A stretch of 64,000 bases of DNA from Stappia sp. MMSF_3263 (lineage in GTDB: Bacteria; Pseudomonadota; Alphaproteobacteria; Rhizobiales; Stappiaceae): NCBI RefSeq assembly GCF_030733745.1, contig NZ_JASHIK010000012.1, positions 1 through 64,000 of the forward strand, written 5' to 3'. The position numbers were made by a program, and so were the translations under genes. The notes below the pieces were generated by a model. It was not told where the DNA came from, ran no database searches, and was given only the letters and a program-made list of their open reading frames with translations. Every line of letters starts with the position of its first letter. Position 1 is the stretch's first letter. Below are positions 37,739 through 54,697 of the stretch, one piece after another.

Positions 37739-39642
37739 CGGTCCTGCCCCCGAAAAGCTCTTTGCGTGCCGCCGTCCTTGTCGCGCTGGTGGCGCTGGCG
37801 GCGGTTCCGGCGGCGGCGATGACGCTCAAGGAAACGCCCTCGCTCGCCGACCGCGTCGGCGTCGACCTGCCGCCGGTGGCCGAGCGCGTGCCGCACGAGC
37901 CGCTGGTCGTCGACCTTGCCGCGCGCGGTCGCCAGATCGGCAAGCCCGGCGGCCAGATCGACACCCTGATCGGCCGCTCGCGCGATGTCCGCCTGATCAA
38001 TGTCTGGGGCTATGCCCGGCTGGTCGGCTACGACGAGGAGCTCGAGCTGAGGCCCGACATCCTCAAGGACTTCATCGAGGAGGACGGCCGGGTCTTCACG
38101 CTGGTCCTGCGCAAGGGGCACAAGTGGTCCGATGGCCACCCGTTCACCTCCGAGGACATCCGCTTCTGGTACGAGGACGTCGCGCTGAATGACGAGCTGC
38201 AGCCCTCCGGCCTGCCGCAATTCATGCTGGCCGGCGGCCAGCCGCCGCTCTTCGAGGTCATCGACGAGACCACGGTCCGCTTCAGCTGGGACGAGCCCAA
38301 CCCGCTGTTCAAGCCGGAACTGGCCAAGTCCCGCCCGCCCTTCATCTACCGGCCGGCGCATTACCTGAAGCAGTACCATGCCCGCTACGGCGACATGGAG
38401 AAGATCGGCAAGCTGGCGGAGGCCAAGAAGCTGAGGAGCTGGGCGGCGCTCTTCAACAAGATGGACGACATGTACGACGCCCGCAATCCGGACCTGCCGA
38501 GCCTGCAGCCCTGGGTGCGGCTCGCCGATGACAGCGAGCGTCGCTTCGTCCTGCACCGCAATCCCTACTATCACCGCGTCGACAAGGCGGGCCAGCAACT
38601 CCCCTATGTCGACAGCGTCGTGATGACGGTTGCCGACGGCAAGATCATTCCGGCCAAGACCCAGGCGGGCGAGGCGGACCTGCAGGCGCGCAACATCGGC
38701 TTTTCCGACATCACAATCCTCAAGCAGGGCGAGAAGGCGGGCCGCTTCGACACCTATCTGTGGCCGATCAGCAAGGGCTCGCAGATCTCGCTGCTGCCCA
38801 ACCTGACCGTTGCCGATCCGGTCTGGCGCAAGGTGATGCAGGACACGCGCTTCCGCCATGCCCTGTCTCTGGGCATCGACCGGGTGATGATCAACAAGGT
38901 GCTTTATCTGGGCTTCGGCACCGCCGGCAACGACACGGTGCTCTCGCGCAGCCCTCTCTTCCGTCCCGAGTATCGCGACATGTATGCGGGCTTCGACCCG
39001 GACAGGGCGAACGAACTGCTCGACGAGATGGGCCTGACCGAGCGGCGCGGCGACGGCGTGCGTCTTTTGCCCGACGGGCGGCCGCTTGAGATCATCGTCG
39101 AGGCCACCGGCGAGAGCCAGGAGGAGCTCGATGCGCTCGAACTGGTCGGCGAGACCTGGCGGGAGATCGGCGTCAAGCTGTTTCCCAAGCCGAGCCAGCG
39201 CGACATCATGCGCGAGCGCGCCTTGTCCGGCCTGATGGTGATGGCCGTGTGGTCGGGGTTCGAGAACGGCATCCCGACCTCGGAAATGACGCCGGAGGAC
39301 TTCGTGCCGGTGCGCGGCGACTTCCTGTCCTGGGCGCGCTGGGGCAACTGGTACGAGACCGACGGGCAGACCGGCGAGAAGCCCGAATGGGCGCCGGCGG
39401 TGCGCCTGATCGAGCTTTACGAGGCCTGGCTTGCCTCGACCTCGCACGAGGAGCGCACCGAGATCTGGCACGAGATCCTGCGCATTCATGCGCAGGAGAC
39501 GATCCATATCGGGCTGGTGTCGGAGGTTCGCCAGCCGGTGGTGGTGAAGAACCTGGGCAACGTGCCGGAAGAGGGGATCTACGGCTGGGATCCCGGGGCA
39601 CATTTCGGCATTCACCGGATGGATGAATTCTACAGGAAATGA
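37735..39642 (+). CDS. ABC transporter solute-binding protein (family 5, YejA-like size)
   Basis: 635 residues, starting at a GTG that overlaps the ATPase stop. A signal peptide (about 1-28, ending VPAAAM) leads into the SBP_bac_5 fold with FVLRKGHKWSDGHPFTSEDIRFWYED and FRHALSLGIDRVMINKVLYLG. It is longer than typical DppA (about 530), like the binding proteins of the YejA/opine group. It captures a solute in the periplasm for the two permeases that follow. The ligand is not predictable from the sequence alone. Confidence 0.9.
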   Translation: MTVLPPKSSLRAAVLVALVALAAVPAAAMTLKETPSLADRVGVDLPPVAERVPHEPLVVDLAARGRQIGKPGGQIDTLIGRSRDVRLINVWGYARLVGYDEELELRPDILKDFIEEDGRVFTLVLRKGHKWSDGHPFTSEDIRFWYEDVALNDELQPSGLPQFMLAGGQPPLFEVIDETTVRFSWDEPNPLFKPELAKSRPPFIYRPAHYLKQYHARYGDMEKIGKLAEAKKLRSWAALFNKMDDMYDARNPDLPSLQPWVRLADDSERRFVLHRNPYYHRVDKAGQQLPYVDSVVMTVADGKIIPAKTQAGEADLQARNIGFSDITILKQGEKAGRFDTYLWPISKGSQISLLPNLTVADPVWRKVMQDTRFRHALSLGIDRVMINKVLYLGFGTAGNDTVLSRSPLFRPEYRDMYAGFDPDRANELLDEMGLTERRGDGVRLLPDGRPLEIIVEATGESQEELDALELVGETWREIGVKLFPKPSQRDIMRERALSGLMVMAVWSGFENGIPTSEMTPEDFVPVRGDFLSWARWGNWYETDGQTGEKPEWAPAVRLIELYEAWLASTSHEERTEIWHEILRIHAQETIHIGLVSEVRQPVVVKNLGNVPEEGIYGWDPGAHFGIHRMDEFYRK

Positions 39643-39690
39643 GTGCGCGGCGCGGCGCGTGGGCGCTGCGCGGTGCTGGGGGACCGCTTG

Positions 39691-40716
39691 ATGCTCTACT
39701 ACATTGCGCGCCGGGTGCTGACGATGATCCCGACGCTGTTCGTGATCAGCCTGCTTATCTTCGTCATCATCGAACTGCCGGCCGGCGACTACATCTCCAA
39801 CCAGATCGCCGCGCTGCGCGCCGCCGGCGAGAGTGCGTCCATCGCCAAGCTGGAGTTCCTGCGCGCCGAGTTCGCGCTCGACCGCCCCTTCCTGGAGCGT
39901 TACCTGATCTGGATCGGCCTGTGGCCCGGCGTTCACGGGCTGGACGGATTGCTGCAGGGCAACTGGGGCTGGTCGTTCGAATACGAGAAGCCGGTCTCCG
40001 AGGTGGTCGGCCCGACCCTTCCGCTGACCATCGTGCTCAACACGGCGACCATCCTCTTCGTCTATATCGTCTCCTTCCCGATCGGCATCTATTCGGCCAC
40101 GAGGCAATATTCCTGGGGCGACTACGGCTTCACCTTCATCGGTTATATCGGGCTCGCGACGCCGAACTTCCTGCTCGGCCTGATCATGCTCTATTTCGCC
40201 AATCTCTGGTTTGGCCTGTCGGTTGGCGGGCTGATGGCGCCGGAATATATCGGCCAGCCCTGGAGCGTGGCGAAGGCGCTGTCGATCCTGGCGCACCTGA
40301 TCGTGCCCACCGTCGTCATCGGTACGGCGGGCACCGCGGCGATGATCCGGCGGTTGCGGGCCAATCTGCTCGATGAGCTGCACAAGCAATATGTGACGAC
40401 GGCGCGGGCCAAGGGCCTGCGCGAGGCGCGCCTGCTGGTCAAGTATCCGCTGCGCATGGCGCTCAACCCGTTCATCGCCGATATCGGCAACCTGATCCCC
40501 TCGCTCGTCTCCGGCTCGGTCATCGTTTCGGTGGTGCTCAACCTGCCCACCGTCGGGCCAGTTCTGCTCAACGCCCTGCAGTCGCAGGACCAGTTCCTCG
40601 CCGGCTTCATCCTCCTCTTCGTCGCGATCCTGACGCTGATCGGCATGCTGGTCTCCGACCTGTTGCTGGCGGTGCTCGACCCGCGCATTCGCCTCGGCGG
40701 AAAGGCCGTGTCATGA
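39691..40716 (+). CDS. ABC transporter permease, DppB-like
   Basis: 341 residues from ATG 39691. A first span (about 8-28, IPTLFVISLLIFVIIELPAGD) is followed by a periplasmic loop and five more spans. The inner-membrane coupling motif ARAKGLREARLLVKYPLRMALNPFI and the C-terminal VLNLPTVGPVLLNALQSQDQFLAGFIL are typical of DppB. It overlaps the next gene by four bases. It forms the channel with the DppC-like partner. Confidence 0.92.
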   Translation: MLYYIARRVLTMIPTLFVISLLIFVIIELPAGDYISNQIAALRAAGESASIAKLEFLRAEFALDRPFLERYLIWIGLWPGVHGLDGLLQGNWGWSFEYEKPVSEVVGPTLPLTIVLNTATILFVYIVSFPIGIYSATRQYSWGDYGFTFIGYIGLATPNFLLGLIMLYFANLWFGLSVGGLMAPEYIGQPWSVAKALSILAHLIVPTVVIGTAGTAAMIRRLRANLLDELHKQYVTTARAKGLREARLLVKYPLRMALNPFIADIGNLIPSLVSGSVIVSVVLNLPTVGPVLLNALQSQDQFLAGFILLFVAILTLIGMLVSDLLLAVLDPRIRLGGKAVS

Positions 40717-41873
40717 GCATGCGCGAGGAAACCGCTCACTACGTCAATCCGGAAGCCTTCAACCCGGCCCAGGCGGAAACGCTGTCGCCGGAGCAGGAGC
40801 GCTACTACCAGGCCTCCCAGTGGCAGATCATGTGGTGGAAGTTCCGCCGCCACCGGGTCGCCGTGTGGTCCGGCGTCATTCTCATCCTGTTCTATCTCTG
40901 CGTGCCGTTCGCCGAGCTGATCGCGCCCTATTCGCCCAACGAACGCTCCAACGACCACCTCTACGCCCCGCCGCAGACGCTGCGCCTGTTCCATGAGGGC
41001 TCCTTCGTCGGGCCGTTCGTCTACGGTTCGAAGGCCAGCATCGACCTGGAGACGGTTCGCTGGGTCTATGCCGAGGACCGGCAGGACGTGCAGCCGCTGC
41101 GCTTCTTCTGTTCGGGCTCGAAATACCGGTTCTGGGGGCTGTTCGACGCGCGCTTCCATCTCGTCTGCCCGGCCGAGGGCGGCACGCTCTATCTGCTTGG
41201 AACGGACCGGCTGGGGCGCGACGTTCTCTCCGGACTGATCTACGGCGCGCGCCTGTCGCTGACCGTGGGCCTCGTCGGCGTGACCATCTCCATCGTGCTC
41301 GGCCTTTTTTTCGGCGGGATCGCGGGCTTCTTCGGCGGGTTCATCGACAGCGCCATCCAGCGGGTGATCGAGATCCTTCGTTCGCTGCCCGAACTGCCTC
41401 TGTGGATGGCGCTTTCGGCCGCCCTTCCGGTTACCTGGTCGCCGGTGTGGATCTATCTCGGCATCACCGTCATCCTCGGCCTGCTCGATTGGCCCGGGCT
41501 GGCCCGTGCGGTGCGCTCCAAGCTGATGGCGCTGCGCGAGGAGGAATATGCCAAGGCGGCGCTGCTGATGGGCGCAAGCCCCTCGCGGGTGATCCGCAAG
41601 CATCTTCTGCCCGGCTTCACCAGCCACATCATCGCCTCGGCCTCGCTGTCCATCCCGGCGATGATCCTTGGCGAGACGGCGCTCTCCTATCTCAATCTCG
41701 GCCTGCGCCGGCCGGCCGTTTCCTGGGGCGTTTTGCTCAACGAGGCGCAGGATATCTCCGTCGTCGTCGTTTATCCTTGGCTGATGGCACCGGTCGTCCC
41801 CATTATCGTCGTTGTTCTGGCCTTCAACTTCCTGGGAGACGGTTTGCGTGACGCTGCCGACCCGTATAAGTGA
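40713..41873 (+). CDS. ABC transporter permease, DppC-like
   Basis: 386 residues. The cytoplasmic N-terminal extension (about 1-45) precedes the first span (about 48-70). A long periplasmic loop of about 110 residues follows, then five spans with the coupling motif KAALLMGASPSRVIRKHLLPGFTSHI and the ending NFLGDGLRDAADPYK. The loop is longer than in DppC and occurs in the YejE-type group, in line with the large binding protein. Last gene of the operon, 52 bases before a methyltransferase on the same strand. Confidence 0.92.
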   Translation: MSMREETAHYVNPEAFNPAQAETLSPEQERYYQASQWQIMWWKFRRHRVAVWSGVILILFYLCVPFAELIAPYSPNERSNDHLYAPPQTLRLFHEGSFVGPFVYGSKASIDLETVRWVYAEDRQDVQPLRFFCSGSKYRFWGLFDARFHLVCPAEGGTLYLLGTDRLGRDVLSGLIYGARLSLTVGLVGVTISIVLGLFFGGIAGFFGGFIDSAIQRVIEILRSLPELPLWMALSAALPVTWSPVWIYLGITVILGLLDWPGLARAVRSKLMALREEEYAKAALLMGASPSRVIRKHLLPGFTSHIIASASLSIPAMILGETALSYLNLGLRRPAVSWGVLLNEAQDISVVVVYPWLMAPVVPIIVVVLAFNFLGDGLRDAADPYK

Positions 41874-41925
41874 TGGCGCACTGCAGCACGAGCTGCGGCG
41901 ACTGAAGCCCAACAGGAAGACGAGC

Positions 41926-42520: not shown

Positions 42521-43321
42521 TCAACCCGCCTGTACCGGCCGGGATGGCGGCAGCAGATCGGCGATCCGCGCGAAGCGGGCGCCGGGATGCGCGGCGAGAA
42601 GCCCGAAGGTCCTGTCCAGGAAATCGAACGAGGCCTCGTCCTGCGCCAGGTGATGCGAGAGGATGCCGAGCGGTTCGTCCGGGTTGTTACGCCGCCGTGC
42701 CAGATGGAAATCGAAGCGCAGGCGTGCCGACTGCCAGCCGATGAAACGCCGCTCCTTCTTCCACTTGATCATGTCGATATGGGTCTGCACGTGGGGGAGC
42801 GCGCGCGGATGGAACTGGGTGAAGGTCGAAAGCCCGACAAGGCCGGCCTCGCCGAGCCGCGACGAGATGCGCGGCGCGATGCGGTTCCAGGGCGGCACCA
42901 TGACAGGCACGAAACGCGTCCCGAAAAGCCCCGCCAGCCGCTCGCGCCCGTTTGCGACCAAGGCCAGCGCTTCGTCCGGGTCGCGCCGCCGGCCTAGCTC
43001 CGCCGCCTTCTCGCCGCGCGCCTTGTCCTGGAAGTTGCGGTGCTCGTAGCCGTGCTGCAGGACGCAGGCGAAGCGCTCGCCGGCGAGCCTGTCCGCCAAC
43101 GCCGGCGTCGCGTCCTTCGGGATGACGGCAAGCGCCACCTCGACCCCGTGCGCATTGGCGATGGCAAGCAACCGCTCGAGTGCCGGACTCGGCTCCACGG
43201 CGTCGTCGTCGCGCCACCAGACGGGAACGAAAAGACCGCGTTCGGCGAACCAGTCGAGATGGCGGGTCAGGTCGTCGCGCCAGGTGCTGAATTCGGCGTG
43301 GGTGTCGGCGGTGCTGCTCAT
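42521..43321 (-). CDS. Polysaccharide deacetylase-family protein
   Basis: 266 residues. The first catalytic/metal motif VPVWWRDDDAVEPSP holds the paired aspartates, and the later QHGYEHRNF gives the two histidines with the spacing of the carbohydrate esterase 4 fold. There is no signal peptide, so it may act in the cytoplasm on a glycan intermediate or be a fold relative. Last gene of the minus-strand glycan cluster; its start overlaps the upstream glycosyltransferase by four bases. It is convergent with the methyltransferase, with five bases between stops. Confidence 0.85.
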   Translation of the reverse strand: MSSTADTHAEFSTWRDDLTRHLDWFAERGLFVPVWWRDDDAVEPSPALERLLAIANAHGVEVALAVIPKDATPALADRLAGERFACVLQHGYEHRNFQDKARGEKAAELGRRRDPDEALALVANGRERLAGLFGTRFVPVMVPPWNRIAPRISSRLGEAGLVGLSTFTQFHPRALPHVQTHIDMIKWKKERRFIGWQSARLRFDFHLARRRNNPDEPLGILSHHLAQDEASFDFLDRTFGLLAAHPGARFARIADLLPPSRPVQAG

Positions 43322-44472
43322 CCGCGCGCCTCCAGCGCTTCGGCGAGGAGCCCGGCTGCCCGCTCCGCACCGCCGAACCTCACCTCGATCTGCCGGCGCG
43401 GCAGGGCGAGCGCCTCGTCGGCCGCCGCCGCCAGTCCTTCCGGCGTCAGCGTTTTCTCCGGGATCGAGACGGCGCGGCCGTGGCGGGCGAGCGCGTCGGC
43501 GCGCTGCTGCTGTTCCGTTTCCTTTATCTGGGCGAAGGGAACCAGGACGGACGGCACCCCGGCGCGCAGGATGTCGAGCACCGTGTTGTAGCCGGCCTGG
43601 CTGACGGAAAGCCGGGCACGCGACAGGAGCGCGGTGAAATCGCGCCGGGCGCGCTCGACGACGACGCCGTCGCCTGCCTCGGCCGCGAGCCGGTTGAAGG
43701 TTTCCTGGTCGATGTCGTGGCCGGCGAGCAGTCGCCAGGTGCAGTCGCCGGCACGCCGCGACAGGGCACGCGCCGGGATCGCGGCGGCCAGGAGATCCGC
43801 CCCGACGGCGCCGCCGCCGCAGGAGACGATCACCTCGTCCTGGCCGTCGCGGCCTTCGGACGCGGCAACGCTGGCGCCGGTCTCGGCAAAGCCCGTGTAG
43901 CGCAGCAGGTGGGCGATGCGGTCCGCGAAGGGGAAGCTGTCCTCCAGTTTCACGAATTCCGGATCGGAATGGACGAGGACGATGTCATAGGCGGCCAACG
44001 CCCGGGTCGCCATCTCCTCCTCCTTCCAGGTCTCCTGCTTGCGCACCAGGATGTCGCGGATCGAGGCGGCAACGAGAGGCGGGCGAGGGCGTGCCCGCGC
44101 CGCCGCGACAAGCGGCTCCATCTCGAAGGCGAACGGCCGGCGGCCGAAGGGCCAGGTCTCCGTCAGAAGCAGGTCGAAATCGCGCGCCGCGAAGGCCTTG
44201 AGCGTCGCCTCGCGCCGCGATGTCTTCCAGGCGTCGTCGATCTCCGTTCCTTGCGGTGTGAGGAAGGTCTTGAAGCGGGCATCAAGCGCCCTGACGGGCG
44301 GCAGTTCGACAATGTTCAGGCCCTGCGTATCGAGCAGAGGCGGCAGCGTGTTGCCGGTGGCGAGCGTCACCTCGGTCCCGCGCGCGGCGAGCGCCCGGCC
44401 GATCGCGGCGGCGCGAAACACATGGCCGGTGCCGAGCAGGTGCTGGACATGGATGAAGGCGGATCGGGTCAT
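43318..44472 (-). CDS. Glycosyltransferase (MurG-like, GT28-type fold)
   Basis: 384 residues. N-terminal domain with the glycine-rich motif HVQHLLGTGHVFRAAAIGRAL and a C-terminal nucleotide-sugar domain with VIVSCGGGAVGADLL, DFTALLSRARLSVSQAGYNT and GVPSVLVPFAQIKETEQQQRADAL. The pattern GTGH plus SVSQAGYNT is that of the MurG/UGT superfamily. The donor and acceptor are unknown. It overlaps both neighbours by four bases, so the four-base overlaps couple its translation to the deacetylase and the next transferase. Confidence 0.85.
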   Translation of the reverse strand: MTRSAFIHVQHLLGTGHVFRAAAIGRALAARGTEVTLATGNTLPPLLDTQGLNIVELPPVRALDARFKTFLTPQGTEIDDAWKTSRREATLKAFAARDFDLLLTETWPFGRRPFAFEMEPLVAAARARPRPPLVAASIRDILVRKQETWKEEEMATRALAAYDIVLVHSDPEFVKLEDSFPFADRIAHLLRYTGFAETGASVAASEGRDGQDEVIVSCGGGAVGADLLAAAIPARALSRRAGDCTWRLLAGHDIDQETFNRLAAEAGDGVVVERARRDFTALLSRARLSVSQAGYNTVLDILRAGVPSVLVPFAQIKETEQQQRADALARHGRAVSIPEKTLTPEGLAAAADEALALPRRQIEVRFGGAERAAGLLAEALEARG

Positions 44473-45593
44473 TGCGGCGAAGCGGTAGCGCGGGCCGCGA
44501 AGTTGCGCAAGGCATGCGAGAGAAAGGCGTCGAGCCGCCTCGCGCCGGCCGCCAGCCCGTGACGGGAGAGGACATGGGCGCGCGCGGCGGCACCCATGCG
44601 GGCCGAAAGGCCGGGTGTGTCCAGCAGGCGGGCAAGGGCCGCGGCGAAGGCTTCGACATCGCCTTCGGGCGCAAGTAACCCGCTCACCCCCTCGGCGACG
44701 ACATCGGGAACGCCGAACGTGTCGCCGCCGACAATCGCAAGTCCCGCCGCCTGCGCCTCCAGGAAGACGAAGCCGAAGGCCTCGCGGATCGCCGGCCAGA
44801 CGAGAATGTCATGGGCAGCGTAGAGCGCCGGCATTTCCTCCGGTGTCAGCGCACCGGTGAAGCGGGCGCCGTGGCGGGCAAACAGTGCCTCGACCTCGGC
44901 CCGGCCAGGTCCGTCACCGGCAATGGTCAGGACGAAGGGGCGGCCGTCCAGTTTGCCGAGCGCCTCGGCAAGCAGCCGGTAGGAGGCCATCTTGGCGCCC
45001 TCTCGCATCATTCCGGCGGCCAGCAGCCGGGGAGACGCGTCGGCATGCGGCGGGATGCGCGGTGCGTCGATGAAGGGCCGTTCGTCGAGGAAGGGCGCAA
45101 GCACGGTCAGCCGCGCATCCGGCACGACCTCGGCGAGGCATTCCCGGTCGGCCCGGTGCAGGGCGGCGACCATGTCGGCGCGGTGAAGGGCGGCATCGGC
45201 GGCGGCGAAACCATGCTCCCACGCGCCAGCCTGCCGCTTCGGCGCGCGGCTCGCCTCGATCACCGCATAGGGCAGGGCGAGGCGGTCGGCAAGCGCCGGT
45301 CCGATCCAGTCCGGTGCCTTGTGATAGAGGTGATAGGTGAGGAAGAGGTCCGGCCGGTAGCCTTCCGCCTCCCATTGGCGGGCGACAGCCTCGGCCTCCC
45401 GGAGGGCTTCGCGTTCGACGGCGCGCTGCGCGTCGATACCGCCTTCCGCCCGCCAGGCACGGAACCGGCTTGCGACCCGCACCTCGTGGCCGGCCTGCTC
45501 AAGTCCCCTGACGATCAGGCGTCCCATGGTCCGGTCGCCGGAGGGGACCGGGTCGTCGAGCGGTTTCATCGGCGCGGTGAAGGCGATGCGCAT
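44469..45593 (-). CDS. Glycosyltransferase family 4 protein
   Basis: 374 residues from MRIAFTAPMKPLDDPVPSGD. GT-B fold with GDRTMGRLIVRGLEQAGHEV in the N-terminal domain and the C-terminal donor domain: TIAGDGPGRAEVEALFARHG, ARFTGALTPEEMPALYAAHD, the REAFGFVFLEAQAAGLAIVGG motif with the catalytic glutamates. Retaining transferase with an NDP-sugar donor. The alternative upstream start (to 45728) runs into the neighbour's frame. Translationally coupled to the GT28-type gene. Confidence 0.9.
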   Translation of the reverse strand: MRIAFTAPMKPLDDPVPSGDRTMGRLIVRGLEQAGHEVRVASRFRAWRAEGGIDAQRAVEREALREAEAVARQWEAEGYRPDLFLTYHLYHKAPDWIGPALADRLALPYAVIEASRAPKRQAGAWEHGFAAADAALHRADMVAALHRADRECLAEVVPDARLTVLAPFLDERPFIDAPRIPPHADASPRLLAAGMMREGAKMASYRLLAEALGKLDGRPFVLTIAGDGPGRAEVEALFARHGARFTGALTPEEMPALYAAHDILVWPAIREAFGFVFLEAQAAGLAIVGGDTFGVPDVVAEGVSGLLAPEGDVEAFAAALARLLDTPGLSARMGAAARAHVLSRHGLAAGARRLDAFLSHALRNFAARATASPQ

Positions 45594-45609
45594 GGGCCGA
45601 ACCTTCCCG

Positions 45610-46830
45610 TCAAAGCACCTTGGCGAAGCGCTGTGCCAGAAGATCGATGCCGGGGTCGGCGGAAAACCGCGCCCGCACATCCAGGCTTGCGGCAGCGCCA
45701 AGACGCGCCCGCCGTGCCGGGTCGCCAATCAGCGCGGCCAACGCCCTGGCCAGCGCGTGCGGATCGCCGGGCGGCACCAGCACGCCGGTCTCCCCGTCCC
45801 GGACCAGCTCGGGGATCGCCGAGACATTGGTGGCCAGGCAGCAAAGGCCCATGGCCTGCGCCTCCATCAGCACGTTGGGCAGGCCGTCGCGGTCGCCGGA
45901 TTTCGCCACCTTGGAGGCGAGCACGAAGAGGTCGGCGCGCGCAGCGGCCGCGATCACGTCCCCGCGCGGTTTCGCCCCGTGCCAGGTGATGCGGCCGGAA
46001 AGGCCGAGGCCTTCGGCCAGGTCCTTCAGCCGGCTGCCCTGTTCGCCGCCGCCGATATGCTCGAAATGCCAGTCGAGCCCTTCCGGCAGGCGGGCAAGCG
46101 CGGCCAGGAGATCGTCATAGCCCTTCTTCTCCACCGCCCTGCCGACGGAGAGGAGCCGAACCTGCCCATTGGCGCCGCCGTCACCCTGTCCGTGTGCCTT
46201 GCGCTGCGGGAAGGGGGAGAAGTCGAGGCCGTGATAGACGAGTTCGATCTTCGTTGGATCGGCTGCCAGCGACTTCAGGTGCTCGGCATTGACGCGGGTG
46301 CAGGTGACACCCCAGGTGGCGTCGTCGAGCTTGGTGCGCAGGTCCCAGTCCGGGCTCGTCCAGATGTCCTTGGCATGGGCCGAGAAGGACCACTTGCGCC
46401 CGGACAGATGGGCGGCGTAGCGCGCCACCGAGCAGGGCGTGTGCAGGTAGTGGGTATGGATCCAGGTGACGTCTTGGGGAAGTTCATGCGCCAGCACGCA
46501 GGCCTGTCCCCAGCGCCGTTGCCGGTTGGCATTGTGTTCGCGGGCGAAATCGGCCTCGTACAATGCGCGCGCGGCAGCGAAAGTCGGTTGTTTTTCGGCC
46601 CATCGCCGGGCCTGGGCGACGCGCGCCGGATCATCCTTGATGTATTCGGGCAGGTAGAGCACGTCGGCGGAAATCTGCCGGTGCACCTCGTGGATGAACG
46701 GATCGTAGGGACGGCGCAGCGCGACGATCAGCTGGGCGATGCCGCGCCGCTCCAGCCCCAGCATCTCCTGCGCGATGAAGGTCTCGGAAAGGCGCGGATA
46801 GCCTTTGACGACGACGGCGATGCGAGACAT
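45610..46830 (-). CDS. Glycosyltransferase family 4 protein
   Basis: 406 residues. GT-B fold: VVVKGYPRLSETFIAQEMLGLE, the central HTHYLHTPCSVARYAAHLSG and SFSAHAKDIWTS, then the donor domain with LLSVGRAVEKKGYDDLLAAL, WHGAKPRGDVIAAAARADLF and DGLPNVLMEAQAMGLC. The KGYPRLSETFI start is shared with transferases of exopolysaccharide and lipid-linked glycan loci. It lies 16 bases upstream of the preceding GT4 gene in the minus-strand operon. Donor sugar unknown. Confidence 0.9.
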   Translation of the reverse strand: MSRIAVVVKGYPRLSETFIAQEMLGLERRGIAQLIVALRRPYDPFIHEVHRQISADVLYLPEYIKDDPARVAQARRWAEKQPTFAAARALYEADFAREHNANRQRRWGQACVLAHELPQDVTWIHTHYLHTPCSVARYAAHLSGRKWSFSAHAKDIWTSPDWDLRTKLDDATWGVTCTRVNAEHLKSLAADPTKIELVYHGLDFSPFPQRKAHGQGDGGANGQVRLLSVGRAVEKKGYDDLLAALARLPEGLDWHFEHIGGGEQGSRLKDLAEGLGLSGRITWHGAKPRGDVIAAAARADLFVLASKVAKSGDRDGLPNVLMEAQAMGLCCLATNVSAIPELVRDGETGVLVPPGDPHALARALAALIGDPARRARLGAAASLDVRARFSADPGIDLLAQRFAKVL

Positions 46831-46864: not shown

Positions 46865-48088
46865 TCAGACGGCGCTGGCGGCGGTCAGTGGACGGGAAAC
46901 CGCTGGGCGGTCGGCAAGGATGCGCTCGACCCTGTCGCCGATCACGTCGAGGCCGCCGAGCAGGTTGTCGATGCCGGCGGTGGAGGGGGGCTCCAGCCAG
47001 GGCAGTTCGGCCAGCGCGTCGATCATCTTGTCGACATCGGGATAATCATCGATCGGCAGGACCTTGAGAAGACCGATGGTTTCCGCCCGCTCCGCGCGGA
47101 TCGACTGCTCGCGTCGCGGCACGACGCGCGGCACCAGCAGCGTCGGCTTGTCGAAGGACAGGATCTCGCAGAAGGTGTTGTAGCCGCCCATGCCGACGAT
47201 CGCCTTGGCTCCGGCCATGTAGGGCTCGATGGTCGGCAGGAAGCGCAATATGTGAACATCGCGCAGATGCTCGGCGCGGGCCTGGAAGTCCGCCGTTGCC
47301 TGGGCCGGCATGAACGGGCCGAGCACGATCAGGGCCGGGAACAGGGGCTGGGCCCGCGACTCGTAGGCCCGCATCACCCAGTCGACCATCTCCACGCCGT
47401 CGCCGCCGCCGCCCGGCGTCACCAGGATATAGGGCTCGTCGTCGAAGGGCAGGGGCTCGGTGATGCGCGCGTCTTCCGGAACGTCGCGGCGCAGATAGCC
47501 CGTGTTCACGGACTTCGCATGCACCGAGGCCGGCAGCCCCATGCCTTCCAGCGGATCATGCAGGTCCGGAGGACCGTAGACCCAGATCTCGTCGTAAAGG
47601 GCATCCAGCGCCGGGTCGACATTCTTGCGGGTCCACTCCTCGCGCAGCACCGCCGGATCGTCCATCACGTCGCGCAGGCCGAGGATGAGCCGCGTGTTGC
47701 CCCGTTGCTTGAGCATCTCCAGCGTGCCCAGGATTTCGCCGCGAAGGCCGAGCGGCTCCTTGTCGACGATCAGGATGTCCGGGTCGAACACCTTGGCCGT
47801 GTGCTCGATGATCGAGGAGCGGATCGCCAGGATGTGCTCGATATTGAGCGACAGCGACAATGGCGTGTACTCGCCGTTGCGAAGCTTGATCACGCCGGGA
47901 ATGCGCACGAAGTCGACGCGCGAGCGGAATTCGAAGCTGCCGATGATCGGCGAGCCCGACAGGATCAGCACCGACATGTCGGAGAATCGGCGGGTCAGCG
48001 CGTGCGCAATCGTGCGGCACCTGCGCAGGTGGCCGAGGCCAAAGGAATCGTGGCTGTAGATCAGCACTTTCGGGGAGCTATTGATCAT
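46865..48088 (-). CDS. Glycosyltransferase family 28-like protein
   Basis: 407 residues from MINSSPKVLIYSHDSFGLGH. The glycine/histidine motif SFGLGHLRRCRTIAHALTRR and the donor-domain blocks YILVTPGGGGDGVEMVDWVM, GAKAIVGMGGYNTFCEIL and PTLLVPRVVPRREQSIRAER are of the MurG/UGT superfamily. The first gene of the cluster, divergent from the ABC exporter with 220 bases between. Together with 43318 it gives two GT28-type and two GT4 enzymes in one unit. Function within a surface glycan is an inference. Confidence 0.87.
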   Translation of the reverse strand: MINSSPKVLIYSHDSFGLGHLRRCRTIAHALTRRFSDMSVLILSGSPIIGSFEFRSRVDFVRIPGVIKLRNGEYTPLSLSLNIEHILAIRSSIIEHTAKVFDPDILIVDKEPLGLRGEILGTLEMLKQRGNTRLILGLRDVMDDPAVLREEWTRKNVDPALDALYDEIWVYGPPDLHDPLEGMGLPASVHAKSVNTGYLRRDVPEDARITEPLPFDDEPYILVTPGGGGDGVEMVDWVMRAYESRAQPLFPALIVLGPFMPAQATADFQARAEHLRDVHILRFLPTIEPYMAGAKAIVGMGGYNTFCEILSFDKPTLLVPRVVPRREQSIRAERAETIGLLKVLPIDDYPDVDKMIDALAELPWLEPPSTAGIDNLLGGLDVIGDRVERILADRPAVSRPLTAASAV

Positions 48089-48308
48089 GCCTACCCATTC
48101 GGTCAGCGTACCCGCCCTGACGCACGACCACGCATCCCCAGTAATTACCATTCTCTAGCCGCCGTGCCGGCCGGGCGCAAGAGGCGGGTGGGTCGCACAT
48201 GCGCATGTGGATCCTCGGGGGAGAGATGATATCGGCCTTCAAGCGGATGTGCGTTCCGGCTGGCGGTTTGCCGTCTCTGCGCTATGATGCCGCGAACCTA
48301 GACGCCGG

Positions 48309-50945
48309 ATGGTGAAACAGGCCCGCGACCTCATAACGCGACCGACGATGGAAAAAAGCCTTTTCAGTTTCATCTGGCGCTACAGCGCAAGACAGCAACT
48401 CGTGATCCTCTTGATCACGGTGATTGCCTATCCGGTGACCTATGCGCTGCTGGAATTGCCCAAGCTGATCGTCAATGACGCGATCCAGGGCGAGAACTTT
48501 CCGCGCGAGGTCGCCTCGGTCGAATTCGACCAGATCTCCTATCTTGTGCTGCTGTGCCTGACCTTCCTCGGCCTCGTCGTAGCCTCGAACGGCATCAAGC
48601 TGGCGCTGAATGTCTACAAGGGCCGGCTTGGCGAGCGCATGCTGCGGCGCCTGCGCTTCGAGCTCTTCCAGCGGGTGCTGCGGTTCCGCCTGCCGCATTT
48701 CAAGAAGGTGAGTTCCGGCGAGATCATTCCGATGATTACCTCGGAAGTGGAGGATGTCGGCGGTTTCATCGGCGAGGCGGTGGCCCTTCCGGCCTATCAG
48801 GGCGGCATGCTGGTCGTGCAGATCGGCTTCATCTTCATGCAGGACCCGCTGCTGGGGCTTGCCGCGATCTCCTCCTATCCGATGCAGGCCTACATCATCC
48901 CGAAGCTGCAGCGGAAGGTGGTGGTGCTGTCGCGCAAGCGCGTGCGCAATGTCCGCGTCATCGCCGACAAGATCGGCGAGAGCATCGGCGGGGTTGCCGA
49001 GATCCACGCCAATGACGCCTCCGCGTGGCATTCCGCGGATCTCTCCGAGCGGCTTTACACCAATTACAAGATCCGCTTCAAGATCTTCAACTGGAAGTAT
49101 TTCATAAAGTTTCTCAACAACTTCATGAACCAGTTGACGCCCTTCCTGTTCTACCTGATCGGCGGCTGGCTGGTCATCGAGGGGAATCTGTCGCTCGGCG
49201 CGCTGCTGGCGGTGATCGCCGCCTACAAGGACCTTGCCGGCCCCTGGAAGGAACTGCTCGCCTACTACCAGATGGTCGCCGACGTCGACGTCAAGTACCA
49301 GACCGTGGTCGAGAATTTCGATCCGGCCGACATCTATCCCGTGGCGCGCCTGACCGACGACGGCGACGGCGATCCGCTTGCCGGCGATCTTGTCATGCGC
49401 AATGCGAGTTTCTCCGGCGGCGCCGCGGGGCAGGAGGTCTTCGAGGTGTCCCTGAAGGTGGAGGAGGGCACGCATGTGGCGGTGATCGGGGTCGACGGCT
49501 CCGGTCGCTCCGAGGTGTTGCAACTGGCCGCCGGTCTTATCGGTGCGACCAGCGGCCGTGTCGAGATCGGCGGGCGCAATCTCGACACGCTGAGCGAGGC
49601 GGTGCTTGGACGCCAGATCGCCTATGTCGGTTCGTCCGTGCATGTGTGGACCGGCACCGTGCGCGACAACGTGCTCTACGGCCTGCGCCATCGCCCCTTG
49701 CGCGCCCCCGAGCGGGAGGGCGAGGCGAAGAACGAGCACGCCCGACGGCTCGCCGAGGCCCGCGCCACACAGAACCCCGACTACGACATCGAGGCGGAAT
49801 GGGAGGACCTGGACGCGGCCGGCTGCGAGGGCGCGGACGGTCTCGACGCCCGTGCGCTGGAGCTGATCGAGGCGATGGGACTTGCCGCCGACGTTTTCCG
49901 CATGGGGCTGCAATCGCCGATCGATCCCGGCCGGCATCCGGAATTCGCCGAGCGCGTGCTTGCCGTGCGCCGGGCCCTTGCCGACCGGGTGGAAGGGGAC
50001 GGCCGACTGGCGGCGATGGTCGAGCTGTGGCACATCGACCGTTTCAACAATTCCGCCAGCGTCGCGGAAAACCTGCTGTTCGCGGCCCCTTCAGACCCGG
50101 CCGTCGGCATCGACACGCTGGCCGGAGATGCCGACGTTCTGGCGGCGCTGAAGGAGACCAGGCTCTACGACAGGCTGGTCGGGATCGGCCAGAAGATCGC
50201 CGCGACGATGGTCGAGCTGTTTGCCAATGTCAGCGGCGATTCGGGGCTGCTTGGCGACTATTCCTTCATTACCCAGGACGAGTTGCCGGAGTTCGAGCGG
50301 ATCACGCGTCTCGCCCGCTCCGAGGCCGGCAAGGGCAGCCTGACACCGGCCGACCGGGAGCGGCTCATCGGACTTGCGTTCAAGCTGATCCCCGCCCGTC
50401 ACCGCCTCGGCGTGCTCGACGACGAGATGCGCGGCGAGATCGTTGCCGCGCGGTCGGTTTTCCACAAGCACCTGGCCGGCGCGCAGCAGCGTTTCGTCGT
50501 CTTCGACCGGGAGCGCTTCGTGGCGCCGATGAGCATCGAGGACAACCTGTTGTTCGGCCGTCCGCGCGTCGACCGCCGCGACGCGCGCGAGCAGATCGAC
50601 CGCCTGATCCGCGCTCTTGTCGACGAAATGGACCTGCGCCGCCCGATCGTGCGCGCCGGGCTCGATTTCCATGTCGGGGTTGCCGGCTCGCGCCTGTCCG
50701 CCGGCCAGCGCCGCCGGGTTGCCCTGGTGCGCGCGCTGATGAAGCGTGCGCCGGTCACCGTTCTCGACGAGACGGCGGCCGGCACCAGCGATGACGACAA
50801 GGCCTTGCGCGCCGCGGTTCGCGGCGAGCTGGAAGGCCGCATGCTGTTGTTCGGGGCATCGAATTTGATCGTGGCGAAGGAATTCGACCATAGTATCGTG
50901 ATGGAGCAGGGACGCCTGGCGGCGGACGGGGAGAGCGAGCAATGA
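48309..50945 (+). CDS. Aberrant ABC exporter with enlarged, degenerate ATPase region
   Basis: 878 residues. The N-terminal half is a type I exporter membrane domain (about 25-340) with spans at about 28-48, 75-95 and later. The nucleotide-binding part is over 500 residues instead of about 240. The Walker A is GVDGSGRS (about 393-400), arginine replacing the essential lysine. The Q-loop region reads IAYVGSSVHVWTGTVRDNVL without glutamine. Signature LSAGQRRRVALVRALM and Walker B VTVLDE are near 796 and 816. The H-loop histidine is absent (LLFGASNLIVAKEF). The extra residues hold two more ENLLF-type segments (near 590 and 745). A later start at ATG 48348 is possible. Transport may be altered or lost. 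Confidence 0.85.
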   Translation: MVKQARDLITRPTMEKSLFSFIWRYSARQQLVILLITVIAYPVTYALLELPKLIVNDAIQGENFPREVASVEFDQISYLVLLCLTFLGLVVASNGIKLALNVYKGRLGERMLRRLRFELFQRVLRFRLPHFKKVSSGEIIPMITSEVEDVGGFIGEAVALPAYQGGMLVVQIGFIFMQDPLLGLAAISSYPMQAYIIPKLQRKVVVLSRKRVRNVRVIADKIGESIGGVAEIHANDASAWHSADLSERLYTNYKIRFKIFNWKYFIKFLNNFMNQLTPFLFYLIGGWLVIEGNLSLGALLAVIAAYKDLAGPWKELLAYYQMVADVDVKYQTVVENFDPADIYPVARLTDDGDGDPLAGDLVMRNASFSGGAAGQEVFEVSLKVEEGTHVAVIGVDGSGRSEVLQLAAGLIGATSGRVEIGGRNLDTLSEAVLGRQIAYVGSSVHVWTGTVRDNVLYGLRHRPLRAPEREGEAKNEHARRLAEARATQNPDYDIEAEWEDLDAAGCEGADGLDARALELIEAMGLAADVFRMGLQSPIDPGRHPEFAERVLAVRRALADRVEGDGRLAAMVELWHIDRFNNSASVAENLLFAAPSDPAVGIDTLAGDADVLAALKETRLYDRLVGIGQKIAATMVELFANVSGDSGLLGDYSFITQDELPEFERITRLARSEAGKGSLTPADRERLIGLAFKLIPARHRLGVLDDEMRGEIVAARSVFHKHLAGAQQRFVVFDRERFVAPMSIEDNLLFGRPRVDRRDAREQIDRLIRALVDEMDLRRPIVRAGLDFHVGVAGSRLSAGQRRRVALVRALMKRAPVTVLDETAAGTSDDDKALRAAVRGELEGRMLLFGASNLIVAKEFDHSIVMEQGRLAADGESEQ

Positions 50946-51034
50946 CCCGGACGATGGCACCGGACACCCTGCAGTCGAACGAGGAACCGCACGCGCCCCT
51001 ACCGGCCGCACGCTTCCCGAAGGAGGACATGTGA
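50942..51034 (+). CDS. Possible 30-residue coupling ORF
   Basis: ATG at 50942 overlaps the stop of the ABC gene (ATGA) and its TGA (51032-51034) overlaps the GTG of the next gene. It encodes 30 residues beginning MTRTMAPDTLQSNEEP. It could be a tiny peptide or simply link translation of the two genes. No ribosome site of its own is needed if reinitiation occurs. Low coding evidence. Confidence 0.3.
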   Translation: MTRTMAPDTLQSNEEPHAPLPAARFPKEDM

Positions 51035-51489
51035 CCCTTGACGCGGAAGTCGATGCATTGCGGCGCGTGCCGCTGTTTCGCGGCATCGACGCAACGAAGC
51101 TGAGGCTCCTGGCCTTCATTTCCGACCGAAGTCATTTCGCGCCGGAGGAACACCTTTGCAACCAGGGGGACGAGGGCGATTCCGCCTTCATCATCCTGGG
51201 CGGGGAGGCGGAAGTCCGGGTGCGCACCGGCGACAGTGAACGCACTGTCGCACGTGTCGGGGAGCATTCGATTGTTGGCGAGATCGCGATCCTGTGCGAC
51301 GTTCCACGCACGGCCACTGTGGTGGCGGCGACGGAGATGGACGTCCTGACGATCTCCAAGGATGGTTTCCTGAGCCTTCTGAAGGAGTTTCCGGACATGT
51401 CGCTTGAGGTCATGCGCACGCTCGCGCAGCGCCTGGATCGCACCACGCAGGCCCTTGTGGCCCTGCAGTCATCCGACGGATCGGCATGA
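51031..51489 (+). CDS. Single-domain cyclic nucleotide-binding protein
   Basis: 152 residues from a GTG with a strong AAGGAGG eight bases upstream. One CAP_ED domain (about 10-130): LFRGIDATKLRLLAFI, then the phosphate-binding cassette VGEIAILCDVPRTATVV with Gly83, Glu84, Arg93 and Thr94, which fits cyclic nucleotide binding. There is no DNA-binding or kinase domain. A C-terminal helix (about 118-145) may contact a partner. It lies in line with the exporter and a metallo-hydrolase, so it probably senses cAMP or cGMP for them. Confidence 0.88.
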   Translation: MTLDAEVDALRRVPLFRGIDATKLRLLAFISDRSHFAPEEHLCNQGDEGDSAFIILGGEAEVRVRTGDSERTVARVGEHSIVGEIAILCDVPRTATVVAATEMDVLTISKDGFLSLLKEFPDMSLEVMRTLAQRLDRTTQALVALQSSDGSA

Positions 51490-51505
51490 ACGGGATGGCG
51501 GATCG

Positions 51506-52324
51506 GTGACTTTCTCCCTGAAGCTTTGGGGCGTGCGTGGATCGACCCCGACACCGGGCCCCTCGACATTGCGCTACGGCGGCGAAACCACGTCCTTCGA
51601 GCTACGCGCCGGCGACGACATCGTGCTGATCGATTGCGGGTCGGGAGCCCGCAGCCTCGGCAGCGAATTGCATGGCCGCCCGCCGCGCGCCGTCGACATG
51701 TTCTTCACCCACACCCATCTCGACCACATCTGCGGCCTACCCTTCTTCACCCCGGCCTATGACGACCGCTTCGCCATCAAGGCCTGGGCCGGGCACCTCA
51801 CCGACAGCTACGGCCTGATGGACATCATCTGCCGGATCATGTCGCCGCCGATCTTTCCGGTCGCCGCCAACAACCTGCGCGCCGTCTCCTTCGCCAACTT
51901 CCGCCCCGGCGGCCCACTTCAGCGCGACGGCGAGATCGCGATCAGCACGGTCGCCCTCAATCATCCGGGCGGCGCCACCGGCTATCGGCTGGAGCATGGG
52001 GGCAAGTCGATCTGCATCATCACCGACCACGAGCATGGCGATCCGGAAATCGACCGGGCGGTGCGCCGCTTCGTCGAGGGCGCCGACGTGATGATCTACG
52101 ATGCGATGTTCACCGACGAGGAATATCCGCGTTTCACGGGCTGGGGCCATTCCACGTGGCAAAAGGGCGTGGAACTGGCGCTTGAGGCCGGGGTCGCCCG
52201 TCCGGTGCTGTTCCACCACGATCCGCGTCGCGACGACGACGCGCTCGACGCGATCGCCGAGCAGGCCGCCGCCCGACATCCCGGCGCACTGGTCGGCCGC
52301 GAGGGGATGGTGCTGACGCCCTGA
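51506..52324 (+). CDS. MBL-fold metallo-hydrolase (WGVRGS type, possible cyclic phosphodiesterase)
   Basis: 272 residues from GTG 51506. The N-terminus has LWGVRGSTPTPG and YGGETTSFEL, the signature of a metallo-beta-lactamase group that includes cyclic phosphodiesterases such as the PhnP-like and CpdP-like enzymes. The metal site HTHLDH is complete (His69, His71, Asp73, His74), with further ligands in ITDHEHGD and VLFHHDP. Substrate is not proven. It sits 16 bases after the cyclic nucleotide-binding gene, and a cyclase follows, so a role in cAMP removal is reasonable. Confidence 0.85.
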   Translation: MTFSLKLWGVRGSTPTPGPSTLRYGGETTSFELRAGDDIVLIDCGSGARSLGSELHGRPPRAVDMFFTHTHLDHICGLPFFTPAYDDRFAIKAWAGHLTDSYGLMDIICRIMSPPIFPVAANNLRAVSFANFRPGGPLQRDGEIAISTVALNHPGGATGYRLEHGGKSICIITDHEHGDPEIDRAVRRFVEGADVMIYDAMFTDEEYPRFTGWGHSTWQKGVELALEAGVARPVLFHHDPRRDDDALDAIAEQAAARHPGALVGREGMVLTP

Positions 52325-52454
52325 GGAGAGGCTTCCCTGTCACGGCGCGGTGAGATGAAGGTCCGCTGCCCTCGCCAAGTCGTGACTTGCCGCTCCGCCG
52401 GACCTGCCGTGTGTTGATGACCTGCCGGCCGGACGGCGGAGGGAGATGCGGGCG

Positions 52455-53807
52455 ATGACAGTGGAACGCGAACCTGCGGGCGATCCGGGGCTGCCTGCTG
52501 GCGCCGCCGCAGGCGTTCCCTTGCGGGTACGCGCCGAGATCGCCGCGCGCGAGACGCAGGCCGAACGGCTGATCGGCTGGGTGCAGCTCGCCATGGTGCT
52601 GTTCTTCGCCGCCCTCTACTTGCTGGCCCCGCGTGCCGAGGGGGCGGACGGGTTCAACTTCGTGCCGCTGGCGCTGGCCGCATATTTCCTCTTCACCGTG
52701 CTGCGTGTCGCGCTGTCCTACCGGTTCGAATTGCCGGTCTGGTACCTCGTCGTCTCCATCGTCGTCGACGTGACGCTGCTGTGCGGGCTGATCTTCTCCT
52801 TCCACATCCAGTACGCGCAGCCCGCGACCTTCTACCTGAAGGCGCCGACGCTGATGTACCTGTTCCTGTTCATCGCGCTTCGGGCTCTGCGCTTCGATCC
52901 GCGCTTCGTCCTGATCACGGGTACCCTCGGCGCGCTCGGCTGGATCGCGCTGGTCGCCTATGCGGTGACGCGCGACATGGGCGAGATGTACATCACCCGG
53001 AACTATGTCGAGTATCTCACCTCCAACGCGATCCTGATCGGCGCGGAGCTCGACAAGATCATCGTCATCATCGGTGTGACGCTCTGTCTTTCGGCGGCGC
53101 TGTACAGGGGGCGGCGGATGCTCCTCGATTCCGTGCGCGACCACGCCGCGGCCGAGGACCTGCGCCGCTTCTTCGCACCGGAAGTCGCCCATTCCATCAC
53201 CGATGCCGACGAGACACTGGTCGCCGGTCGCGGCAGCCTGCGCGAGGCGGCCGTGATGGTGGTCGACATTCGCGGCTTCACCCGCATCGCGGAAACGCTG
53301 CCGCCGGCAACGGTGTTGGCCGTGCTCGCCCGTTACCAGGAAGCGGTGCTGGGCGTGATCGCCCGCCATGGCGGGCAGGTCGACAAGTTCCTCGGCGACG
53401 GGGTGCTTGCGACATTCGGCGCGGTCTCGTCAAGCGACACGGCGGCGGCCGACGCGTTGCGGGCGGGTCTGGAGTTTCCAGGGGTTTTCGCAGCTCTTGG
53501 CCCCGACCTTGCCGCACTCGGCTGGCCGGAGGACCTGCGTGCGGGCGCGGCCGTCTCGTTCGGGCCGGTAACCGCCGGCGTTGTCGGGGCGGCCGGGCGG
53601 CTGGAATTCACCGTGATCGGCGATGCGGTCAACCGCGCGGCGAAGCTGGAAGACGCCAACAAGACGCAAGGGTCCACCGTCCTGACCGATGCCGCGACCC
53701 TTGCGGCCGCAACCCTGCAGGGTTTTGACGGCGGCGCGCCGTTGCTGCGTCCCGGGCAGGCGGTTGCCGGCCTTGCCGCGCCGGTCGATCTCGTCGTGCT
53801 TGCGTGA
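52455..53807 (+). CDS. Six-span membrane adenylate cyclase
   Basis: 450 residues from ATG 52455, with GGAGGG at usable spacing; ATG 52446 is too close. About six membrane spans (roughly 40-215) with little between them, then a class III cyclase domain with metal Asp in VMVVDIRGFTRIAETL, Lys in QVDKFLGDGVLATFG with the second Asp, and Asn/Arg in VIGDAVNRAAKLEDANK. All key residues are present, so it should make cAMP. It resembles cyclases with a 5-6TM sensor. It is 130 bases after the MBL gene and may be in the same unit. Confidence 0.88.
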   Translation: MTVEREPAGDPGLPAGAAAGVPLRVRAEIAARETQAERLIGWVQLAMVLFFAALYLLAPRAEGADGFNFVPLALAAYFLFTVLRVALSYRFELPVWYLVVSIVVDVTLLCGLIFSFHIQYAQPATFYLKAPTLMYLFLFIALRALRFDPRFVLITGTLGALGWIALVAYAVTRDMGEMYITRNYVEYLTSNAILIGAELDKIIVIIGVTLCLSAALYRGRRMLLDSVRDHAAAEDLRRFFAPEVAHSITDADETLVAGRGSLREAAVMVVDIRGFTRIAETLPPATVLAVLARYQEAVLGVIARHGGQVDKFLGDGVLATFGAVSSSDTAAADALRAGLEFPGVFAALGPDLAALGWPEDLRAGAAVSFGPVTAGVVGAAGRLEFTVIGDAVNRAAKLEDANKTQGSTVLTDAATLAAATLQGFDGGAPLLRPGQAVAGLAAPVDLVVLA

Positions 53808-53929
53808 TCGGGCACGCCGGGCGCGCGGTCATGCATGCTTGACCAAATCCGTCCTTCCTGCCACCTCTTGCCACCATCCAATTCTGCCAGGCGGTGCAAT
53901 GTCGCCGGCGACACAACCGGGGAGTGAAC

Positions 53930-54697
53930 ATGAAGCTTGGGGAAGGTCTTTCCGCCGTCGTTACCGGCGGGGCATCCGGACTTGGCGCTGCAACGGCGCG
54001 CCGTCTTGCATCGGCCGGGGTCAAGGTCACGCTGTTCGACATGAACGTGGAGCAGGGCGAGGCGGTCGCCGCGGAGATCGGCGGAGCTTTCGTTGCCGTC
54101 GACGTGACCAGCAATGACAGTGTCGAAAAGGGCTTTGCCGCGGCACGCGCGCATTTCGGCGTGGAGCGCATCCTTGTCAATTGCGCCGGCATCGCGCCGG
54201 TCGCCAAGACCACCTCGCGCGGCGAGCCGCACCCGATGGACATGTTCGAGAAGGTGATCGCGGTCAATCTCGTCGGCACCTTCCGTTGCATCGCGCATGC
54301 CTCGACCGCCATGTCGGCGCTGGAGCCGGTCACGGCGGACGGCGAGCGCGGCGTGATCGTGTCCACAGCCTCGGTCGCCGCCTTTGACGGCCAGATCGGC
54401 CAGGTCGCCTATGCCGCCTCCAAGGGGGGCGTTGCCGCCTCGACCCTGCCGATCGCCCGCGACCTGTCGAAATCCGGCATTCGCGTGATGACGATCGCGC
54501 CGGGCCTGTTCGAGACGCCGATGCTGCTCGGCCTGTCGCAGGAGGTGCAGGATTCGCTCGGCCAGCAGGTGCCGTTCCCCTCGCGCCTCGGCAAGCCGGA
54601 AGAATATGCCAGCCTCGTCGCCTCGATCTGCGAGAATCCGATGCTCAATGGCGAGACGATCCGCCTCGACGGTTCGATCCGCATGGCACCGCGCTGA
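53930..54697 (+). CDS. SDR oxidoreductase, 3-hydroxyacyl-CoA dehydrogenase type
   Basis: 255 residues from MKLGEGLSAVVTGGASGLG. NAD-binding TGGASGLG, VNCAGIAP and the catalytic Ser (VSTASVAAFDG) and Tyr/Lys (YAASKGG) are intact. The ATPGLFETPML-like APGLFETPML and the ending NGETIRLDGSIRM match type 2 3-hydroxyacyl-CoA dehydrogenases (HSD17B10-like), which act in fatty-acid and isoleucine breakdown. It has its own upstream space of 122 bases with GGGGAGTG before the ATG. A tandem duplication overlaps its stop. Confidence 0.9.
   Translation: MKLGEGLSAVVTGGASGLGAATARRLASAGVKVTLFDMNVEQGEAVAAEIGGAFVAVDVTSNDSVEKGFAAARAHFGVERILVNCAGIAPVAKTTSRGEPHPMDMFEKVIAVNLVGTFRCIAHASTAMSALEPVTADGERGVIVSTASVAAFDGQIGQVAYAASKGGVAASTLPIARDLSKSGIRVMTIAPGLFETPMLLGLSQEVQDSLGQQVPFPSRLGKPEEYASLVASICENPMLNGETIRLDGSIRMAPR

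Follow-up and report, generated by a model that had tools for sequence, protein, structure and literature searches.

A family of degenerate ABC exporters with a triplicated helical-subdomain segment and a linked cyclic-nucleotide-binding domain in Alphaproteobacteria

A 64,000-nucleotide stretch of Stappia sp. MMSF_3263 (contig NZ_JASHIK010000012.1, positions 1 to 64,000; hereafter the window) carries the gene of an 878-residue pseudo-ATP-binding cassette (ABC) exporter (48309..50945, + strand), in which an N-terminal transmembrane domain (TMD) is followed by a degenerate nucleotide-binding domain (NBD) with a triplicated segment of the helical subdomain. For this protein and its relatives, sequence comparison establishes homology to ABC exporters, the repeats, the loss of catalytic residues, purifying selection among close relatives, and linkage or fusion to a cyclic-nucleotide (cNMP)-binding sensor domain. 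The reading that we favor, with a probability of about one in two, is that of a catalytically dead ABC exporter whose NBD has been turned into a coupling platform for a cyclic-nucleotide sensor and which probably serves a glycan.

Results

The frame at 48309-50945 is uninterrupted and starts with ATG. In Pfam, its product matches ABC_membrane (PF00664) at residues 77-303, with 64.8 bits over a cut-off of 28, and ABC_tran (PF00005) in two split stretches that together score 71.8 bits, the better of them at 379-477; both the TMD (residues 14-337; 48348..49319, +) and the NBD are therefore homologous to those of ABC exporters. Of the 156 NCBIfam models matched, none of the best 25 reached its cut-off, and the top match, MsbA_lipidA, scored 167.8 bits against the 602 required of an MsbA equivalog. 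The ATP site itself is degenerate. In the Walker A motif GVDGSGRS (residues 394-401; 49488..49511, +), R400 replaces the lysine of GxxGxGK[S/T]; serine stands at position 442, the place of the Q-loop glutamine by alignment, and again at position 851, that of the H-loop histidine. The signature RLSAGQ (residues 795-800; 50691..50708, +), located like Walker A from the sequence and the family alignment, differs from LSGGQ by one letter, and the Walker B motif VTVLDE (residues 816-821; 50754..50771, +), upstream of S851, has here both the Asp and the catalytic Glu, which vary across the family. An earlier note on this DNA had listed the same losses and retentions, and each of them is borne out. 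It had also counted about 300 residues between Walker A and the signature; the distance from R400 to the signature serine S797 is in fact 397 residues, against a canonical spacing of about 100 and exactly 100-101 from the Walker A lysine in 30/30 canonical exporter controls, so the NBD of the window protein holds about 297 extra residues, and it is this excess that the figure fits.

The family was delimited by alignment of 101 members from the fetched loci L001 and L009-L137, each scoring 300 or more in phmmer with a match that begins no later than residue 30 and extends at least to residue 840, after removal of identical middles. Truncated, interrupted and TMD-only matches and the Sinorhizobium meliloti loci L138-L139 lie outside the alignment, and a short relative would escape a set selected for near-full length. 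The residues counted are those to which individual roles have been assigned in ABC ATPases. K400 with S/T401 (GK[S/T]) was found in 5 members, Q442 in 8, the Walker B pair D820 and E821 in 17, and H851 in 22; the set of these four features is complete in 0/101 and wholly absent from 60, whereas all six catalytic residues are present in 30/30 control exporters. The insert recurs in every member, with 371-472 residues between positions 400 and 800, and the only shorter relatives met in the genome searches were truncated, interrupted or TMD-only. A homologue with an intact Walker A and an NBD of normal length, which the earlier note had named as grounds for abandoning its case, was not found among the 101.

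Conservation is distributed differently in these proteins and in the canonical control. Over 1500 sampled pairs, mean identity in the family is 0.56 for the TMD and 0.57 for the X-loop/signature region, which are among the best-conserved parts, followed by 0.46-0.51 for the repeat motifs described below, 0.35 for the N-terminal part of the RecA core and 0.29 for its C-terminal part. In the control, the TMD stands at 0.49 and the NBD above it (0.58 in RecA N, 0.70 in RecA C and 0.79 in the X-loop/signature region). The gradient is thus reversed with respect to canonical exporters, and the RecA parts of the family are among the lowest. The control comprises a single exporter family, found with one protein of this genome as the seed and represented by the best 30 loci out of 110 matching genomes; it leans to close relatives, yet its TMD identity is lower than that of the studied family. 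An alternative proposal of the earlier note, a new ATPase architecture, finds no support in these data: the RecA parts rank near the bottom in conservation, and no other set of catalytic residues was seen. In seven pairs of Stappia-group orthologues (dS 0.14-1.04), dN/dS over the whole NBD is 0.04-0.16, which indicates that in this group the NBD is under constraint and not decaying; for the RecA C-part alone, the ratio reaches 0.29 in one pair. The low ratios led us to reject a recent pseudogene in the window and, together with the recurrence of the architecture in 101 distinct members, a sequencing or frameshift artefact.

The window NBD contains three related motifs, TVRDNVLYG (450-458), SVAENLLFA (584-592) and SIEDNLLFG (742-750). 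The first belongs to copy 1 (residues 436-538; 49614..49922, +), which comprises the Q-loop strand without its glutamine, TVRDNVLYGL, a linker and helices up to a GL, and occupies the ordinary NBD site after Walker A. Copy 3 (residues 725-789; 50481..50675, +), made up of RFVVFDRERFVAPMSIEDNLLFGRP and helices, runs into the signature. Between them lie copy 2 (residues 566-629; 50004..50195, +), made up of VELWHIDRFNNSASVAENLLFAAP and helices, and its tail (residues 630-722; 50196..50474, +), a family-conserved stretch of about 93 residues that includes YSFI..DELPE and FKLIPARHRLG and is without a Pfam match. When profiles of the segments, taken from the alignment of the 101 members, were compared with one another, the match was 98.2% for copies 2 and 3 (E 3e-14), 91.9% for copies 1 and 2 (E 7e-7) and 91.0% for copies 1 and 3 (E 1e-6). 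The remaining 18 segment pairs stayed at or below 4.4%, with one exception: copy 1 and the core next to it, two segments cut with an overlap of 10 residues, reached 78%. When the columns were shuffled 100 times per copy pair, the observed score was reached in no case; chance likeness of short motifs was rejected on these grounds. The alignments begin with the strand ahead of the Q position, or just past that position in the case of copies 1 and 2, take in the motif [S/T]hxxNhh[F/Y]G and the helices after it, and end at the GL turn that precedes the X-loop. The motif asparagine is kept in 97, 101 and 101 of the 101 members in copies 1, 2 and 3, respectively. The sequence profiles show the three ENLLF segments to be genuine repeats, each covering the strand of the Q-loop and the beginning of the helical subdomain of the NBD. 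The earlier note had read TVRDNVLYGL, SVAENLLFAAP and SIEDNLLFGRP in this order and supposed that the segment after the Q-loop had been copied three times, and both statements hold; what was copied extends beyond the motif and takes in the strand, the Q position, the ENLLF helix and the helices to GL.

The structure models reach low to moderate confidence. The full-length AlphaFold2 model has a mean pLDDT of 55.8, and a model of the NBD alone (mean pLDDT 68.2) resembles an ABC NBD around the insert and is too weak to superpose the copies. In the secondary structure of the latter, which has moderate confidence, helices follow the short ENLLF helix in 3/3 copies, and a strand precedes it in copies 1 and 3. 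Foldseek matched this model to exporter NBDs with a target TM-score of up to 0.66 (TAP1, 5eum) and an rmsd near 12.5 A, a value that limits the likeness to that of NBDs in general.

Behind the exporter gene lies that of a 152-residue protein (51031..51489, +), the proposed sensor subunit, with a cNMP-binding domain (Pfam PF00027, 72.5 bits) whose phosphate-binding cassette VGEIAILCDVPRTATV looks intact and retains Glu and Arg. Such a domain is encoded on the exporter strand, no more than 900 bases downstream, in 90/101 members and is fused to the exporter C terminus in another 10, with adjacency scored by the position of the domain match and the window locus entered by hand as adjacent. PF00027 was also found in 10/10 C-terminal extensions tested, a set that differs from the 10 fused rows in that L098 (the same protein as L095) and L102 (outside the 101) are in and L096 is out. 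Across 104 domain matches, i.e., all distinct ones at E 1e-6 in the loci fetched, among which there may be a few unrelated Crp-type proteins, the cassette keeps its Gly in 104, its Glu in 98 and its Arg in 104. A cyclic nucleotide or similar ligand is expected because these three residues are retained, and the Glu and Arg are those that we take to bind phosphate. With a cNMP domain adjacent or fused in 100/101 members and a complete ATP site in none, the earlier note's notion of a regulated pseudo-transporter is well supported at the level of sequence.

Some relatives have no NBD at all. TMD-only proteins of about 400 residues are encoded at L118:4943-6181, L119:4868-6091 and L121:4831-6027, loci that also hold genes for a multicopper oxidase, a cupredoxin or a PCuAC copper chaperone. 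In phmmer, all three give strong matches to the window TMD (240-255 bits). The Pfam ABC membrane domain scores just over its cut-off of 28 bits in L118 (33.3) and L121 (29.2) and has no match in L119. Neither canonical nor family NBD profiles found an NBD in the fetched DNA of L118, L119, L121, L113, L123 and L124. A TMD tree was built from the window protein, every fourth of the members among the first 50 rows and every fourth control; in it, the family forms its own clade, distant from the canonical control. Five of the six solo TMDs group as one clade beside L077 within the family (90/85, not a starred branch), and L124 is placed outside the family, at the end of a long branch. The TMD-only clade is likely, though not certain, to be nested in the family, on a tree that warns of long branches. 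By eye, the NBD-less exporter TMD of L124 (4913-5854, - strand; 314 residues) lies beside a LysR-like open reading frame.

At E 1e-40 or better, the family was detected in 46/61 relatives and in 140 of the 386 genomes sampled in the class Alphaproteobacteria. A sample of the phylum yielded 24 matches in 299 genomes, 23 of them in the same class and the remaining one a TMD-only piece. The family also occurs on plasmids, where 336 records match, 261 of them with 80% or more of the query covered; Rhizobium and Sinorhizobium account for many of the records, which include pSymB of S. meliloti 2011. The loci L129 and L130, from one genus, hold interrupted copies of the exporter gene, with pieces in different frames. 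No paper on this exporter family was found in the open-licence literature searched with narrow word combinations.

Divergently from the exporter gene, the window encodes four glycosyltransferases, assigned by domain matches and relatives' loci: a GT28_C-like enzyme (46865..48151, -), two group 1 enzymes (45610..46830 and 44469..45728, both -) and a MurG-like GT28_C enzyme (43318..44472, -). They are followed by a DUF2334/polysaccharide-deacetylase-like protein (42521..43321, -), a weak assignment below cut-off (E 0.02), and then by the genes of an Opp-type importer, i.e., a double ATPase, a family 5 binding protein and two permeases (35684..41873, +). A methyltransferase accompanies this importer (35684-42516). 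Conservation of the neighborhood was followed in 21 wide windows, one from S. meliloti pSymB and 20 from other genomes (one of the same genus), these 20 reaching from some 14 kb upstream of the exporter to some 3 kb downstream. The second glycosyltransferase (GTb) has a relative near the exporter in 13 of the 21, as does the importer ATPase, also in 13. One canonical exporter used as a query at E 1e-10 revealed no second exporter in any of them. This gene linkage suggests that the cargo is a glycan or glycolipid that is made, exported and perhaps recaptured.

On the other side, the cNMP protein gene is followed by a metallo-beta-lactamase (MBL)-fold hydrolase frame (51404..52324, +), with a true start that is probably later and matches, all below cut-off, to RNase Z models and to the cyclic-nucleotide-degrading phosphodiesterase model NF041851, and then by a class III nucleotide cyclase of 453 residues identified with Pfam (52446..53807, +), the proposed source of the signal. 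Cyclases closely like that of the window (>300 bits) also lie near L134, L146, L147 and L149, outside its taxonomic family. The linkage to the exporter is not general, as 2 of 13 close relatives (L018 and L019) show no cyclase in the flank. Next come a short-chain dehydrogenase gene that is syntenic in close relatives (53894..54697, +) and, after it, a DUF418 membrane protein (54606-56240) kept in several of them.

Discussion

The mechanism that we infer, including the homodimer, the docking site, the ligand, the cargo and transport without ATP hydrolysis, would start from an MsbA-like half transporter, from which the exporter presumably descends, probably as a homodimer whose NBD no longer runs an ATP cycle. 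In canonical exporters, the Q-loop and X-loop region and the helical subdomain of the NBD face the coupling helices of the TMD. It is this surface (Q-loop strand, ENLLF helix and helical subdomain) that would have been tripled and kept, with the X-loop and the signature helix, as a coupling platform. The cNMP protein, whether the product of an adjacent gene or a C-terminal fusion, would dock on this platform; cAMP or cGMP from the neighboring cyclase would bind to it and thereby switch the TMD, and the MBL-fold hydrolase may end the signal. The cargo would probably be a glycan or glycolipid from the divergent four-glycosyltransferase cluster, with the exporter fold retained as a gate or flippase and the NBD serving as a non-hydrolyzing adaptor. 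More tentatively, this ABC-fold family may have given up ATP as its driver to become a cyclic-nucleotide-gated conduit or flippase, with an NBD rebuilt by tripling of its TMD-facing subdomain into an adaptor between gate and sensor and then dropped in one branch.

Several observations weigh against this proposal. The window protein retains LSAGQ and the Walker B DE; L103 and L104 retain GKS and DE; and L054 has GKT, DE and the histidine, with only Q442 missing. ATP binding or a heterodimeric site is conceivable because the signature (S797 in 67/101, Q800 in 88/101) and G399 (91/101) are partly kept. The non-repeat helices and linkers of the repeats, at 0.34-0.38 identity, are no more conserved than the RecA parts. 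In L116, the sole such case of the 101, no cNMP domain occurs in the 2870 bases downstream; the cyclase and the MBL-fold hydrolase are inconstant neighbors of the exporter; and several divergent members showed no glycosyltransferase nearby. The last point comes from HetC of Nostoc, the closest published case that we met, in which the cNMP-type domain bound ppGpp, and cAMP gave no significant protection (PMC10986499). HetC resembles the window family in pairing an ABC exporter with a cNMP-type domain, which is fused and required in vivo, and it requires the catalytic ATPase Glu (PMC10986499). The architectures differ in that HetC carries an N-terminal cNMP-type domain and a C39 peptidase (PMC10986499), whereas the window family has a separate or C-terminal domain and a degenerate ATPase, and the window exporter protein gave no Pfam match to a C39 peptidase at E 0.1.

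The chief rival, unlikely in our judgment, makes the protein one half of a heterodimer, lending its signature in trans to the intact Walker A/B of an ordinary exporter so that one ATP site works. Exporters with one degenerate ATP site provide precedents for such an arrangement. It would account for the standing of the X-loop/signature region (0.57) among the best-conserved NBD parts, with S797 in 67, Q800 in 88 and G793, like R808, in 101 of the 101 members, and a suitable partner would be at hand, as an ordinary control-type exporter occurs in 110/114 genomes sampled (E 1e-60). However, the signature glycine G799 is kept in just 36/101, none of the 21 wide windows holds a second exporter gene by the single canonical query, the TMD clade is far from the canonical control, and relatives without a detectable NBD exist. 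In ABCG5/G8, TM287/288, SUR and CFTR, canonical catalytic residues are likewise lost, but one competent ATP site is kept; in this family, the set is incomplete in every aligned member, and the canonical query revealed no partner gene in the 21 wide windows.

A second rival, quite unlikely, is an ATP-binding switch in which the NBD binds ATP without hydrolyzing it and ATP and the cyclic nucleotide jointly set the open or closed state. In its favor, the P-loop glycines are mostly kept (G394 in 85 and G399 in 91 of 101 members), and the lysine has mostly become arginine (57/101). Position 400 is nevertheless alanine in 13 members, position 401, which coordinates Mg, has S/T in only 36 and an acidic residue (E or D) in 50, and no conserved substitute site was seen in the alignment.

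It is improbable that the protein has ceased to be a transporter and acts as a membrane scaffold or receptor that organizes the glycosyltransferases and reports the cyclic-nucleotide level. Linkage to the glycosyltransferases and the cNMP protein, as well as the existence of NBD-less relatives, would suit that role, but the whole TMD is among the best-conserved parts (0.56), as expected for a retained translocation path, and the 21 wide windows contain no other exporter for the product of the cluster by the query used. An ordinary active exporter with unusual residues, in which ATP is still hydrolyzed, if slowly, and the repeats act as mere spacers, can draw on the Walker B D and E of the window protein and the nearly complete L054, and is highly improbable given a full catalytic set in 0/101 members against 30/30 controls and a repeat asparagine that is nearly invariant, unlike a spacer.

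Set beside known systems, the sensor-coupled exporter that we favor shares with MsbA and the ABCB-type (type IV) half exporters, including NdvA/ChvA, the common order of an ABC_membrane TMD followed by an NBD. It departs from MsbA in its score far below the MsbA cut-off, the lost catalytic residues, the insertion of roughly 297 residues, in which the helical-subdomain segment recurs twice, and the cNMP partner. It is the ATPase that defines ABC exporters, and a large family that is under selection with a complete ATP site in no aligned member, and that has kept the parts contacting the TMD, is a natural test of what NBDs do beyond burning ATP. CFTR uses the exporter fold for gating, and if the cyclic-nucleotide link is true, the family would be a bacterial counterpart of such repurposing. 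The same link would provide a direct second-messenger output in Alphaproteobacteria, S. meliloti included, and a handle on an uncharacterized glycan cluster.

Current annotation sets a trap in this respect, since the degenerate exporter goes by the name "ABC transporter ATP-binding protein." Among the 40 plasmid matches listed, 4 name the gene and 4/4 do so in these words; in the S. meliloti record CP050512, the gene so annotated is followed by one called "Crp/Fnr family transcriptional regulator."

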